Below, piece after piece: positions 16,270-21,299 of a DNA stretch of 64,000 nt. This DNA comes from Microbacterium murale. Its GTDB lineage: Bacteria; Actinomycetota; Actinomycetes; Actinomycetales; Microbacteriaceae. Below the pieces are notes generated by a model. It saw only the letters and a list, made by a program, of their open reading frames with translations. It did not search any database and was not told the DNA's origin. Both the position numbers and the translations under genes were made by a program. The stretch covers positions 3,472,001-3,536,000 of the forward strand of contig NZ_JAUSXK010000001.1 in the NCBI RefSeq assembly GCF_030815955.1, written 5' to 3'. Numbering within the stretch: the stretch's first letter is position 1; every line of letters starts with the position of its first letter.

Positions 16270-17967
16270 ATGGCATCAGTTGTGGAGGAGTTGGAGAGCA
16301 TCGATCGGTTGTTGGCCGATGCGGTGGGTTCTTCCTGTGCGGGTGGCGGTGCAGATGGCGGGGTACGCTTCGCGAACGACACCGAACTGTTGGATGTGAT
16401 GCAGGTGTTGGGGCGTGTGCAGCGACGCCTGGATGGTGCGATCGTCGCGGTGACAGACCAGGTCGTGGAGCGGGATCAGGTGGAGCGTGATGCACGTTTC
16501 TCGACCAGGGCGGGATGCCGTGATGCGGCAGAAGTGCTGCGACGCACGCTGCTCGTGGATGGTCCTGCCGCACGCCGGTATGTGGCCGCGGCCGGGGCGG
16601 TGCGTCGGGAGCAGGACATCACCTCGGGTGCGTTGTTGCCAGGGAAGTTCCCCGAGCTGGCGGCGGCACTGGCGGACGGATATCTGTCTGTGGGTGGGTT
16701 TTTGGCGTGCACGGTCCCGTTGCTGAAAGCGGCCCGGATCGGGGTGGCGGATCGGCTGGCGTCGGATGCGGTGCTGGCACGCTTCGCGTCCGGGCTGCCG
16801 GTGGACGGCACGGATCCGGGAGACGGTGAGCGTGGGCCGTTGCCGACGACGGATGAGCTCGCCGCCCTGGTCGCGCATATCGTGGCCCGGTTGGATCCGG
16901 ATGGCGCCGAGCCATCGGATCGGGCGGGCAAGCGGCGCCGGCATTTCACGATCGGGAAGCTCCGCGACGGGTCCGTGCCGGTGCGGGGAGAGTTGCTGCC
17001 GGAGGTCGCGGCACAGTTGCAGAAACTCATCGATAGCCTCCTGAATCCGAAAGCGGGCGACGAGGGCTCCGGCAGTACGGTGCGATTCCGGCCCTCGGAC
17101 GATGATGGCGACGGTGAGCGCCGTGACGACGGCACCAGCGAACGCGATGACGGCACCGGCGACGACGACCGTGACGGCACCGGTGATGCGGGGTTCGCGG
17201 CGAAGTACGCCTCCAGCAGCACCGAGTACGGGGCCGGGGAACATTCGGATCGTGCGGACGGGCTCGAGCCCCACAAGGCGGCCTCTCCGCCCGCAGGCGG
17301 GGCGGACCTGCGCACGCACGCCCAGAAGCGTCACGACGCGTTCGCGACCGTACTGATGGTCGCTGCCGCATCCGGAGGCATGCCCATGTTGGGTGGGGCT
17401 GCACCGACGCTGGTCGTCTCCGTCACCGCAGAAGACTTCGCCCACCGCACCGGACGCGCCAAAGTCGAAGGCGCCGGATACGACGTCCCGCTCGGCGCCG
17501 CCGACCACGCCGGGTGTGCGGGCGGCGTCCAACGTGTCCTGTTCGATGACAAGGGTGCGATCGTCGGAATCAGCACCAGCGCACGCCTGTTCAACGCGAC
17601 CCAACGACGGGCGATCGTGCTCCGCGACCGCGAATGCCTCATCCCCGGCTGCCACATCCCCGCCGAATGGTGCGAGATCCACCACGTCCAAGAACACGCC
17701 CAAGACGGACCCACCCACACCAGCAACGGTGTGCCCCTGTGCTGGCACCACCACCGCACCCTCGACGACGGCACCTGGAGAATCCGCATCCACCACGGAC
17801 TCCCCGAAATCCGAGGACCCGGCTGGTGGGACCCCTACGCCAAATGGCGATCACCCCACCTCGACTACACCGCGGTCGACAACGCCCTCAACACCGAACG
17901 CGCACGAGAACCCGCACGAGAACTAGAACCCGCACCAGAACGAGAACCCGCATGGAACACCTGGTGA
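16270..17967 (+). CDS. DUF222 / HNH endonuclease-signature protein (13E12 family)
   Basis: A 565-residue protein. An N-terminal DUF222 region (about residues 30-330) holds VQRRLDGAIVAVTDQVV and AAEVLRRTLLVD. A linker rich in Asp, Gly and Arg (about 275-310) is low complexity, and the C-terminal HNH nuclease domain reads RDRECLIPGC..WCEIHHV...NGVPLCWHHHRTLDDG (about 455-500). The last 25 residues repeat Glu-Arg/Pro units. This family is multicopy in actinobacteria (REP13E12 in M. tuberculosis) and behaves like an accessory element; its biological role is not established. The coding strand is G/T-rich in the first two thirds and abruptly C/A-rich from about 17430, unlike neighbouring genes. Confidence 0.9.
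   Translation: MASVVEELESIDRLLADAVGSSCAGGGADGGVRFANDTELLDVMQVLGRVQRRLDGAIVAVTDQVVERDQVERDARFSTRAGCRDAAEVLRRTLLVDGPAARRYVAAAGAVRREQDITSGALLPGKFPELAAALADGYLSVGGFLACTVPLLKAARIGVADRLASDAVLARFASGLPVDGTDPGDGERGPLPTTDELAALVAHIVARLDPDGAEPSDRAGKRRRHFTIGKLRDGSVPVRGELLPEVAAQLQKLIDSLLNPKAGDEGSGSTVRFRPSDDDGDGERRDDGTSERDDGTGDDDRDGTGDAGFAAKYASSSTEYGAGEHSDRADGLEPHKAASPPAGGADLRTHAQKRHDAFATVLMVAAASGGMPMLGGAAPTLVVSVTAEDFAHRTGRAKVEGAGYDVPLGAADHAGCAGGVQRVLFDDKGAIVGISTSARLFNATQRRAIVLRDRECLIPGCHIPAEWCEIHHVQEHAQDGPTHTSNGVPLCWHHHRTLDDGTWRIRIHHGLPEIRGPGWWDPYAKWRSPHLDYTAVDNALNTERAREPARELEPAPEREPAWNTW
17913..17958 (+). repeat. Short imperfect GAACCCGCA repeats at the end of the HNH gene
   Basis: Iterated CGAGAACCCGCA-like units with small variations encode the Arg-Glu-Pro-Ala tail. 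The array is only about 45 bp long and looks like replication slippage inside a tolerant C-terminal tail. Confidence 0.5.
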
Positions 17968-17985
17968 CTGACCGCTAGCCGATCA

Positions 17986-19911
17986 TCAGGCGAGTGCGTC
18001 GCTGATCAGGCGCTCAAGCGTGCGGATGCCGTCGCGAGACAGGATCGATTCGAGGTGCCCCTGCACCGACGCGAACGAGGGTCCACGTAGGGCGTAGACG
18101 TCGCCGGTTGTGGCGTCGGCAGACACTTCGGCGGCACCCGCAACGGTCGTGCCGGGGGAGACCCGGGCCGTGAACGTGTTGTAGAACCCGATCGAGGCAT
18201 CCTCGCCGAACATCGGCACGATCTTCTGCAAGCCCTGGTGCGGTGCCGTGAGCGGTGCGAGTTCGATGCCGAACCGGTCGGCCAGGATCTGGTGGCTGAG
18301 GCACACTGCGAGCAGAGGCGCGCCGGCATCCAGGCGACGGGCGACGACCTCGCGCATGCGCGCGACGCGCGTGATGCTCGCATCACGAGGATCCCCGGGG
18401 CCGGGTCCGGCGACCAGCAGCTCAGCACCGTCGACATCCGCATCCGTGACGTCGCTCCACGGCACGATCCTGGCGTCGAGGCCGAGGTGGCGCAGCTGGT
18501 GGGCCAGCATCGTCGTGAAGCGGTCTTCGGCATCGACCACGAGCGCACGGCGCCCGGCGAACGGCCCGGCAGTGCCGTCCTCCTGCGGGTTCAGCCAGAA
18601 CTCGGCCAGCCGTGAGTTGCGTGAGGCGAGCAGCTCAGCGACCTCCGGGTCATCTGCGAGCGAAGTCTCGGCGGCGGGAGCATCCGGGTCGATCTTGGTC
18701 TCGGCGACGACGTCGCGAGGGATCGCACCGATGGCGCCGAGCACACCGGCGGCTTTTCCATGGGTTTCGCTCACCTCTCCGTACGGGTCGGAGTGGCGCA
18801 CGAGCGTCGCCCCTACAGGCACACGGAGCTGACCGTTCTCCAGATACACGGTGCGGATCAGGATGGGTGCATCCACGTCGTGGCCGCCGTCGCCGTTCGG
18901 TGTGAAGAGCGCTGCGACACCGGAGTAGTAGCCGCGCGGCTTCATCTCATGGCGTCGGATGACGGCACAGGCGTTCTGCATGGGAGAACCGGTCACCGTC
19001 GGGGCGAACATGGTCTCGCGGAGGATGTCGCGCGGGTCGAGCCGGCTGCGCCCGCGCAGCATGTACTCGGTGTGGGTGAGACGTGACATCTGCTTCAGGT
19101 GCGGGCCGGTGATCCGGCCGCCGTCCGAGCACACAGCGCTCATCATCTTCAGTTCTTCGTCCACGACCATGAAGAGCTCTTCGGTCTCCTTGGTGGATGA
19201 GAGGAACTCGACGAGCGTCTCCTTCGTCGCGCCACCCGCGGGGTGGCGGAACGTGCCGGAGATGGGGTTCATGGTGACGATGCCGTCACGTGCGACGACA
19301 TGCGCTTCTGGACTTGCGCCGACCGCGATGTGCCCCGGCGTGATGACAGCGAAGGTCCAATAGGCACCCCGTTCATGCGTCAGCAGAGCTCGGAACCACG
19401 TGAGAGCCGCCGTTCGTTCGGCGCGCACCCGGTCGTCGGCGCCGAGATCGTCGGTTCCGAGGCCGACGGTGGCGGTGTAGTCGCGGCGGATGACGAAGTT
19501 CGCGCCTTCGCCACGCCCGATCTCATCGGCGATCACACGGGTCACGACCTGGGCGTAGTCCTCATCACTGATGTCGAAGCCGGCATCTTTCAGCGGCACA
19601 GAATCCTGAGGCAGTGCTTCCACGACCTCGCGGAGCGGAAGGTGCTCATGCTCGTCGACGAGCAGACACCGCAGCGGTGTGCCGTCATCCTGCGCCTCGA
19701 AACCGCGCTCGCGCACCTGGCGGTAAGGCACCATCGCGAAGACCTCGCGAGCAGCACCGTCGACCGTGAGCGGGATGTCGGCGAGCAGATCGACGTCTTC
19801 GACGTCTCCGGTGAGCAGCTCTACGCTCTGGGCGCCGTCGCGGGCGATCAGCACGAAAGACGCCTCCGGGTCCCGCACGAGTGCGGCGAGCAGGGCTGCG
19901 GTATCGGTCAT
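17986..19911 (-). CDS. trpE: Fused anthranilate synthase, TrpE-TrpG (PhzE-like architecture)
   Basis: A 641-residue fusion. Residues of about 1-430 are a chorismate-binding synthase domain (GTFRHPAGG, SAVCSDGGRITGP, FAPTVTGSPMQNA), and 460-641 a class I glutamine amidotransferase with catalytic Cys537 (AVCLSHQ) and the His619-x-Glu621 pair (GHLESI). It should turn chorismate and glutamine into anthranilate, or aminodeoxyisochorismate if it is a true PhzE. The Trp leader peptide and attenuator just upstream argue for tryptophan biosynthesis. Start ATG 19911 has AGGAG 8 nt before it; the frame stays open upstream through the leader but in the wrong context. No other trp gene is in the window. 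It converges on the HNH gene (18 bp between stops). Confidence 0.9.
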   Translation of the reverse strand: MTDTAALLAALVRDPEASFVLIARDGAQSVELLTGDVEDVDLLADIPLTVDGAAREVFAMVPYRQVRERGFEAQDDGTPLRCLLVDEHEHLPLREVVEALPQDSVPLKDAGFDISDEDYAQVVTRVIADEIGRGEGANFVIRRDYTATVGLGTDDLGADDRVRAERTAALTWFRALLTHERGAYWTFAVITPGHIAVGASPEAHVVARDGIVTMNPISGTFRHPAGGATKETLVEFLSSTKETEELFMVVDEELKMMSAVCSDGGRITGPHLKQMSRLTHTEYMLRGRSRLDPRDILRETMFAPTVTGSPMQNACAVIRRHEMKPRGYYSGVAALFTPNGDGGHDVDAPILIRTVYLENGQLRVPVGATLVRHSDPYGEVSETHGKAAGVLGAIGAIPRDVVAETKIDPDAPAAETSLADDPEVAELLASRNSRLAEFWLNPQEDGTAGPFAGRRALVVDAEDRFTTMLAHQLRHLGLDARIVPWSDVTDADVDGAELLVAGPGPGDPRDASITRVARMREVVARRLDAGAPLLAVCLSHQILADRFGIELAPLTAPHQGLQKIVPMFGEDASIGFYNTFTARVSPGTTVAGAAEVSADATTGDVYALRGPSFASVQGHLESILSRDGIRTLERLISDALA

Positions 19912-19951
19912 CGAGATCTCCTGTGCAGGGCTCCGGCTCGGCTCAACGAAA

Positions 19952-20010
19952 AGACCGCCCCGGAGGCGGTCTGGATTCGTGGGAACGCGAACACACCGCC
20001 TAGGAGGCGG
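19952..20010 (-). promoter_or_regulatory. Trp attenuator: overlapping alternative hairpins upstream of trpE-trpG
   Basis: On the minus strand, CCGCC (20006-20010) and GGCGG (19996-20000) form an early hairpin overlapping the end of the leader peptide. AGACCGCC (19965-19972) and GGCGGTCT (19952-19959) form a terminator stem followed by a T-tract. GGCGGT (19995-20000) can instead pair with ACCGCC of the terminator's first arm, so the second and third segments compete with termination. This is the arrangement of ribosome-mediated attenuation: stalling on the two Trp codons should free the antiterminator and let trpE be transcribed. Confidence 0.85.
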
Positions 20011-20035
20011 GCCACCAGGTGAAGTTCGCGAGCAT
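20000..20035 (-). CDS. trpL: Trp leader peptide (11 residues, MLANFTWWPAS)
   Basis: A 12-codon open frame with two consecutive Trp codons (20012-20017) and a TAG stop inside the first attenuator hairpin. There is no ribosome binding site; TAGTTT ends 6 nt before the ATG, so the leader peptide itself is predicted to be translated from a leaderless mRNA. It is too short for ordinary gene finding. Its job is to sense charged tRNA-Trp and set the choice between terminator and antiterminator ahead of the TrpE-TrpG gene. Confidence comes from the combination of WW codons, stop position and competing hairpins. Confidence 0.88.
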   Translation of the reverse strand: MLANFTWWPAS

Positions 20036-20047
20036 GGGCCGAAACTA
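20036..20047 (-). promoter_or_regulatory. Leaderless-type -10 element for the Trp leader peptide
   Basis: Minus-strand TAGTTT (20042-20047), 6 nt (CGGCCC), then ATG at 20035. The bases before it read TGTGATAGT, an extended -10-like context. Confidence 0.6.
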
Positions 20048-20135
20048 TCACAATGCGACGACCGGCTCAGACCCGTCAGCATCCGAAACCGGTGTGCATG
20101 GAGCCGGGTTCCAGCCTCCGGCCACCGCGGCGGCG

Positions 20136-20147: not shown

Positions 20148-21299
20148 GTGCCTGCAGTGAATCTTGGGATGCCGCGCGTCCCCGAAGTCCTGAGTCCTCG
20201 TCGCAAGTCCCGACAGATCAGTGTCGGAAAGGTGCTCGTCGGTGGCGATGCGCCCGTGAGCGTCCAGTCGATGACGACGACGAAGACGACCGACATCAAT
20301 GCCACGCTTCAGCAGATCGCCGAGCTCACCGCCTCCGGCTGCGAGATCGTGCGCGTCGCGGTGCCGCATCAGGACGACGCGGATGCACTGAAGATCATCG
20401 CGATGAAGAGCCAGATCCCGGTGATCGCCGACATCCATTTCCAGCCGCGTTACATCTACACCGCGATCGACGCGGGCTGCGGAGCCGTGCGCGTGAACCC
20501 AGGGAACATCCGCGAGTTCGACGGGAACGTCGGCAAGATCGCCGAAGCCGCGAAGGCTGCGGGCGTCTCGCTCCGCATCGGCGTGAATGCCGGCTCGCTC
20601 GACAAGCGCATCCTGCAGAAGCACGGCAAGGCCACGGCAGAGGCGCTCGTGGAGAGCGCCGTATGGGAGGCATCGCTGTTCGAGGAGCACGACTTCCACG
20701 ACTTCAAGATCTCGGTCAAGCACAATGATCCGGTCGTCATGGTGAAGGCCTACCGCCTACTGGCTGAGCGGGGCGATTGGCCCCTGCACCTCGGCGTGAC
20801 CGAAGCCGGCCCCGCGTTCCAGGGCACGATCAAGTCGGCGACCGCGTTCGGAATCCTGCTGTCGGAAGGTATCGGCGACACCATCCGCGTCTCGCTGTCC
20901 GCCCCGCCCGCGGAAGAGGTCAAGGTCGGCCACCAGATCCTGCAGTCGCTGAATCTACGAGAGCGCAAGCTCGAGATCGTCTCGTGCCCGTCGTGCGGAC
21001 GTGCGCAGGTCGATGTCTACACGCTTGCCGACAACGTCACTGAGGGCCTGAAGGACATGACGGTGCCGTTGCGCGTCGCGGTGATGGGGTGCGTCGTGAA
21101 CGGCCCCGGCGAGGCACGCGAAGCCGACCTCGGCGTGGCCTCCGGCAACGGCAAGGGTCAGATCTTCGTCAAGGGCGAGGTCATCAAGACCGTGCCCGAG
21201 GCCGACATCGTCGCGACGCTGATCGAGGAAGCGAATCGCATCGCCGCCGAGATGGGCCCGGACGCCAAGCCCGGCACCGCGCAGGTCGTCACGGCATGA
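20148..21299 (+). CDS. ispG: 4-hydroxy-3-methylbut-2-enyl diphosphate synthase (GcpE)
   Basis: A 383-residue iron-sulfur enzyme of the MEP pathway that converts MEcPP to HMBPP. It has the TIM-barrel start ([45 protein letters not shown]) and the [4Fe-4S] cysteines in CPSCGR and [10 protein letters not shown]. Length is usual for the family. It starts with GTG at 20148 on a leaderless-type promoter and is followed after 7 bp by the SIMPL gene, so the following small genes up to 23124 may be one transcript. It acts in the same pathway as dxr at 10649. Confidence 0.97.

Follow-up and report, generated by a model that had tools for sequence, protein, structure and literature searches.

A predicted leaderless tryptophan attenuator ahead of a PhzE-type trpEG fusion in Microbacterium murale and its counterparts in the Actinomycetes

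Upstream of a 641-codon gene for a fused anthranilate synthase-like protein (trpEG), on the minus strand of a 64,000-nucleotide stretch of the Microbacterium murale genome (the whole of which we call the window), lies an element of about 87 nt, very probably a transcription attenuator of the ribosome-mediated type whose sensor peptide is leaderless, its leader ATG standing 124 nt 5' of the ATG of the gene. As sequence the element is real and very well supported. Its kind is already known from Streptomyces and Sinorhizobium, and the window offers a clear case; what we add here is how widely the leaderless design occurs, together with a conserved basal helix, beginning at the AUG or just after it, by which the leader ORF is closed, and the apparent replacement of trpE by the fusion.

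Layout of the leader and its proposed switch

All features of the element lie on the minus strand, where leader nucleotide k is window position 20036-k. An extended -10 promoter element, TGA-TAGTTT (20042-20050; hexamer TAGTTT at 20047-20042), is separated by six bases from the ATG at 20035, which opens a predicted leaderless ORF, trpL (20000-20035), read from the sequence and its relatives; it encodes the 11 residues MLANFTWWPAS and ends in a TAG stop codon at 20002-20000. The tandem Trp sensor codons, TGGTGG (20012-20017), are invariant in the alignment of 49 sequences described below. Arm 1, CCGCCT (20005-20010), recognized by folding, alignment and hairpin energies relative to shuffles, forms a first hairpin, CCGCCT/AGGCGG (20010-20005 with 20001-19996), with arm 2, AGGCGGT (19995-20001), which overlaps the stop codon, so that part of the stop lies inside the hairpin. 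Arm 2 can pair instead with arm 3, ACCGCCT (19964-19970), the antiterminator partner and at the same time part of the 5' strand of the intrinsic terminator hairpin 3:4 (19949-19972; terminator scan, covariation), in which AGACCGCC...GGCGGTCT (19972-19952) is followed by TTTT (19952-19949; -14.8 kcal/mol). Since arm 1 (20010-20003) and arm 3 (19969-19962) both contain CCGCCTCC, the two arms compete for arm 2. A basal helix, P0, pairs CGCGAAC (20030-20024) with GTTCGCG (19992-19986) and in folding encloses the ORF from nucleotide 6; both strands were assigned by folding and by the own-partner test given below. A Shine-Dalgarno sequence, AGGAG (19918-19922, read from the sequence), then precedes trpEG itself (17986-19911), which has an ispG-like and an HNH-type ORF as neighbours (both named by eye). 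The end of the HNH-type ORF, which converges on trpEG, carries imperfect repeats of the type GCGGGTTCTCGT (17880-17970, by eye).

Much of the original prediction could thus be read directly from the sequence: the 11-residue WW leader, the -10 hexamer ending 6 nt before its ATG, the stop codon within the first hairpin, and a terminator mutually exclusive with an alternative fold, which is present both in the sequence and in its folds. The Rfam model RF00513 (Trp_leader) matches 20023-19945 over model positions 1 to 100 (E = 6.9e-5), yet its 31.2 bits fall below the gathering score of 41 bits, which no match in the window reached.

In the switch that we propose, RNA polymerase would start on the A of the leader ATG (20035), give or take one base, and the 5'-terminal AUG would be loaded directly by a ribosome. 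With charged tRNA-Trp in ample supply, the ribosome would pass the WW codons to the stop and cover arm 2, and the 3:4 terminator would stop transcription at about 19949; with charged tRNA-Trp in short supply, a ribosome stalled at WW would cover arm 1, arm 2 would pair with arm 3, and trpEG would be transcribed past the blocked terminator. Were no ribosome to load, the leader ORF would fold into a long 1:2 hairpin (P0 plus the stop-codon stem) and the terminator would form, which would make off the default state. In folding, the antiterminator was obtained with Trp7 in the A site and the RNA free from 11-13 nt on (-22.0 to -20.6 kcal/mol), and by minimum free energy the terminator prevailed when, with Trp7, the free RNA began 14 nt on, when Trp8 occupied the A site (11-14 nt) and when the ribosome stood at the stop codon. 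The two folds are near balance, so the switch would depend on the order of folding. Classical attenuators likewise depend on folding order.

Conservation of the leader in relatives

A scan of species genomes with the downstream protein gave at least 587 relatives, of which the best 80 were kept. These 80 loci are mostly from Microbacterium, and Agromyces, Jiangella, Blastococcus, Embleya, Yinghuangia, Kutzneria and others are also represented. A short ORF with WW stands before the gene in all 78 loci having enough upstream DNA (L048 and L049, with too little, were left out of this count). Conservation of the WW codons in relatives, a comparison set beforehand, was in this way borne out.

The promoter spacing is nearly as constant. 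With starts picked by peptide length only, 77 of 79 leaders (the window and 78 relatives) have TANNNT ahead of the start, at 6 nt in 46 and at 7 nt in 31, an arrangement that shuffled upstream DNA gives in 0.95% per locus; in the two misses, L085 and L089, TANNNT precedes an earlier in-frame start, by 6 and 7 nt respectively (by eye). A TG stands one base ahead of the hexamer in 63 of the 77, and conservation upstream of the leaders consists of the block TGTGRTAGNTT, every column before it carrying at most 0.61 bits. Shine-Dalgarno-like 4-mers occurred in none of the 79 leaders in the region tested, as expected of a sensor peptide said to have no ribosome binding site, and a Shine-Dalgarno-like match was found before 43 of the 78 downstream genes, whose starts were assigned only roughly. 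Spacing so nearly constant is the pattern to be expected of a fixed leaderless start, and from it we predict a 5' end at 20035.

The stems were compared across the same leaders. Hairpin 1:2 folds at -5 kcal/mol or below in 79 of 79 (mean -10.4 versus -4.8 for shuffled sequence; L044 and L082 do not improve on the shuffled mean), and the terminator scan found a hairpin in 77, with none in L079 and L085 and poor-looking ones in L083 and L090. Dropping L079, L082, L083, L084, L085 and L090 and removing identical rows left a list of 66, from which 48 sequences were chosen and aligned with the window; because these loci are related, the shuffle counts given here are not probabilities. In this alignment of 49 sequences 94.7% of terminator cells are paired and four of nine pairs show changes on both sides, a number reached by 19 of 500 shuffles; the covariation score (0.191 versus 0.101) was reached by none of the 500 and exceeds that of every slid version. 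For the antiterminator 2:3, with 87.6% of cells paired and both-side changes in three of seven pairs, covariation evidence is weak: its score of 0.060 was reached by four of 500 shuffles, in further pair types it did not rise above shuffles (454 of 500), and a shift of the partner by +2 or +3 gave higher scores (0.098 and 0.107) with fewer cells paired. Stem 1:2 (81.3% paired) showed no excess covariation in fixed alignment columns, probably owing to a register that differs from clade to clade. With arm 2 bound to match both arms 1 and 3, and arm 3 to match arm 4 as well, little free covariation would be expected in the shared core. The compensatory stem changes that had been anticipated were seen in the terminator, weakly in the antiterminator and not in stem 1:2.

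Breadth of the leaderless design and the basal helix

A covariance model was built from the 49 aligned sequences. It places the element in 20 of 150 family genomes, and the TrpEG gene occurs in 20 of the 150; 19 genomes have both, with the element directly before the gene on the same strand. All 19 family elements other than that of the window have TANNNT 6 or 7 nt before an in-frame start (any in-frame start being allowed). An element in G136 (G136:C5:30817-30907; L126 / L116), considered as a possible orphan, proved to be a leaderless-type WW element before trpB (named by NCBIfam), with the leader MSRNAMQSWWAA; neither TrpE nor TrpEG was found in that genome at E <= 1e-60. In G027 (1.4 Mb), TrpEG lies beside an ispG-like start (by eye; L125, C15 upstream of 24627) and no leader was seen before it; a plausible ATG of this TrpEG gene has TANNNT 7 nt ahead of it. 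The next match in the source genome (E = 0.0045, 28.3 bits) was rejected as a second element and taken as chance, no trp gene being recognized by eye among the ORFs of its 3.1-kb locus, and a weak opposite-strand match (L117) overlapping L107 was not counted.

In the class sample the element was found in 121 of 394 genomes. The class search gave 140 places, 16 in the same family and 124 outside it (hand count), and the analysis covered 107 of these 124 (L232 is truncated at the end of its contig). Among the 107, 42 precede a PhzE-type TrpEG, 37 trpS, 24 a fused TrpE-clade3-type gene and three trpD, each typed by its best tblastn match to six reference proteins from loci of this analysis, with an NCBIfam check of one example each of TrpE-clade3, trpD and trpS; one place (L172) has no gene. 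Outside the family, then, 106 of 107 elements precede a gene of Trp biosynthesis or charging. Of the 106 class elements, 98 have TANNNT at a distance of 6 or 7 nt upstream of an in-frame start (any such start allowed; 1.1 expected), and 93 have it when the start is chosen by peptide length alone; two of the eight exceptions have TANNNT at 8 nt, and a Shine-Dalgarno-like match was seen in two of the 106. At the trpS loci (L153, L155, L206 and 34 others) the gene is preceded by a WW leader, whose spacing is of the leaderless type in most cases. For S. lividans, the accessible text of PMC8079986 prints the trpS leader with a single Trp (LWRAA), and relatives such as L206 read LWWAA.

Comparable elements have been described, in papers cited here from their accessible sections unless a whole-text count is given. 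Streptomyces lividans has TrpL1 (MFAHSTRNWWWTAHPAAH) before trpE and TrpL2 before trpS, both transcribed leaderless (with RNA-seq for trpL1), and trpL1-trpE resembles the window in its leaderless start, two hairpins and U-rich stretch before a monocistronic trpE (PMC8079986); trpL1 encodes 18 residues with three Trp, whereas the window leader has 11 residues with two. Leaders near-identical to trpL1 stand before PhzE-type TrpEG in genus g117 (e.g. MFAHSTQNWWWTAHPAAH, L244), so S. lividans trpL1 is probably an orthologous element. In Sinorhizobium meliloti, an alphaproteobacterium with a 14-residue peptide, the RNA rnTrpL begins with the ATG of trpL and precedes a fused, Trp-attenuated trpE(G) (PMC7298713). 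The novelty implied by the original prediction accordingly falls away, leaderless Trp leaders before trpE or fused trpE(G) having been published in S. lividans (PMC8079986) and S. meliloti (PMC7298713). Trp attenuators were also predicted in Corynebacterium and Streptomyces, with reference to experiments in C. glutamicum and S. venezuelae (PMC1262725; Seliverstov et al., 2005); they share with the window double or triple UGG codons, a GC-rich terminator with poly-U and a competing antiterminator, and the word 'leaderless' occurs 0 times in that paper. Mycobacterial cysteine-rich uORFs are likewise leaderless ORFs rich in the relevant amino acid before an operon (PMC4633059), but the amino acid there is cysteine, and no conserved terminator hairpin was found for the cys leaders (PMC1262725); a leaderless ilvB leader is known in C. 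diphtheriae (PMC5784534). We found no paper joining Microbacterium with tryptophan leader-peptide attenuation, and the accessible literature gave no earlier account of the basal helix or of class-wide leaderless spacing, in searches that did not target the helix itself. Canestrari 2020 is said to concern the leaderless cysteine-rich uORFs of mycobacteria, and Ashenafi et al. 2015 reportedly concerns the fused anthranilate synthase of S. venezuelae.

The basal helix is longer with its own partner than with partners from dissimilar loci in 53 of 66 distinct loci (L082 and L084 left out, identical pairs merged), with mean lengths of 6.17 for own partners, 4.97 for dissimilar and 4.43 for shuffled ones (Wilcoxon p = 2.4e-9, on rows that are non-independent). 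Taken locus by locus, p <= 0.05 was reached in only 28 of 76 loci (L082, L084 and L085 of the 79 left out). The sequence of P0 varies by clade with pairing kept (GTACGCGA:TCGCGTAC in Jiangella, CGTCGAA:TTCGACG in Agromyces; 45 different 5' strands in all), so RNA pairing seems to constrain the N-terminal codons no less than the peptide does. The best P0 helix begins at nt 1-2 in 13 of the 66 loci and at nt 3 in nine, the other 44 having it from nt 5 or further on; part of the AUG would fall within P0 in a fifth of the loci. We raise tentatively, and with more doubt than conviction, the idea that the switch makes functional use of its leaderless start, the design being a Trp sensor that is standard in Actinomycetes for trpEG, fused trpE, trpS, trpD and trpB. 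If this were true, a P0 that starts at the AUG or just past it (nt 6 in the window leader) and closes the ORF would demand that a ribosome load before about 50 nt had been made, or else the leader would shut and the terminator form; the element would then gauge two things, charged tRNA-Trp and how many ribosomes are available that can initiate on leaderless mRNA.

Two other readings of the leader concern its 5' end and its product. The mRNA might have a 5' UTR from a promoter farther upstream, with the leader still sensing Trp and ribosomes loading without a Shine-Dalgarno sequence or by another signal. The start site is after all a prediction, the 112 bp between the leader ATG and a divergent start codon at 20148 leave room for another promoter, and eight of the 106 class elements depart from the usual spacing; yet conservation is confined to the TGTGRTAGNTT block, with nothing upstream of it above 0.61 bits, and a 6/7-nt spacing so nearly fixed, together with Shine-Dalgarno-like matches in 0 of 79 leaders, makes a 5' UTR very improbable in our view. 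We also consider it unlikely that, in addition to action in cis, the terminated RNA of about 87 nt and its peptide act in trans in the manner of Sinorhizobium rnTrpL and peTrpL: the attenuated product would indeed match their design as a small leaderless mRNA (PMC7298713), but apart from its start and WW the peptide differs between clades, and P0 pairing accounts for much of the conservation of the N-terminal codons.

The fused enzyme and its pathway

The 641-aa protein contains Pfam domains Chorismate_bind and GATase, and PhzE is by far its closest solved structure (506 bits, the best chain named anthranilate synthase scoring 64). It is nearest PhzE over both domains and so belongs to the PhzE/ADIC synthase sequence family, lying far below the cut-off for fused TrpE-clade3 (133 versus 739 bits). 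The S. meliloti trpE(G) enzyme is presumably of that other fused type, TrpE-clade3.

The source genome (4.11 Mb, one contig, completeness estimate 100%) encodes four chorismate-binding proteins: pabB-like (only its C-terminal frame was scanned), a pabA-pabB-like fusion, isochorismate-synthase-like, and the window fusion. None of the four reached the TrpE cut-off among the 25 best models listed for each. The pabB-like gene (L001; G000:C1, about 4094700-4096000) is seemingly split over two frames, by sequencing error or a real disruption. The genes trpB, trpC and trpD are present, as is trpA by eye. At G000:C1:3767500-3774500 (L095) the order is hisG-hisF-hisI-membrane protein-trpC-trpB-trpA (several names, those of the his genes and trpA, by eye); trpE is absent between hisI and trpC of this his-trp cluster, and trpD lies elsewhere in the genome. 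The attenuated window fusion may have replaced the trpE of the cluster, and is the only anthranilate-synthase candidate found in the genome. A sole candidate in a genome that has trpA, trpB, trpC and trpD makes a tryptophan role well supported.

The enzyme could instead make 2-amino-2-deoxyisochorismate for some product other than tryptophan. Its closeness to PhzE, by far the nearest solved structure, and its 133 versus 739 bits for fused TrpE-clade3 would fit this, as would the conventional TrpE found beside it in 12 of the 20 family genomes with the gene (10 over the model cut-off, two just below), and protein sequence gives no sign of which enzymes proceed to anthranilate and which do not (PMC5958127, accessible text); catalytic residues were for this reason set aside as a test, the query and PhzE aligning closely there. 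But the gene is the sole candidate in a genome with trp genes and with trpE missing from its his-trp cluster, a WW attenuator stands in front of it, and conventional TrpE was not found in the other eight of the 20 genomes, so that we regard the alternative as improbable. A search for PF03284 as a check on phenazine synthesis gave no match in the genome, yet also none in 14 control genomes, and so counts neither way. Most likely, then, on genome content and regulation, the window fusion makes anthranilate for tryptophan, and in other genera it exists beside TrpE; the proposal of a tryptophan rather than a phenazine role is favoured by the sole candidacy of the gene, the trp genes present and the WW attenuator in front.

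These results indicate that a single compact Trp attenuator of leaderless type serves several trp genes widely across the Actinomycetes, and suggest a way in which this genome, with no trpE in its his-trp cluster, controls tryptophan synthesis. The PhzE-like proteins of the clade gain a testable role as anthranilate synthases, and the element, being short and natural, lends itself to studies of how initiation on leaderless mRNA keeps up with RNA polymerase.
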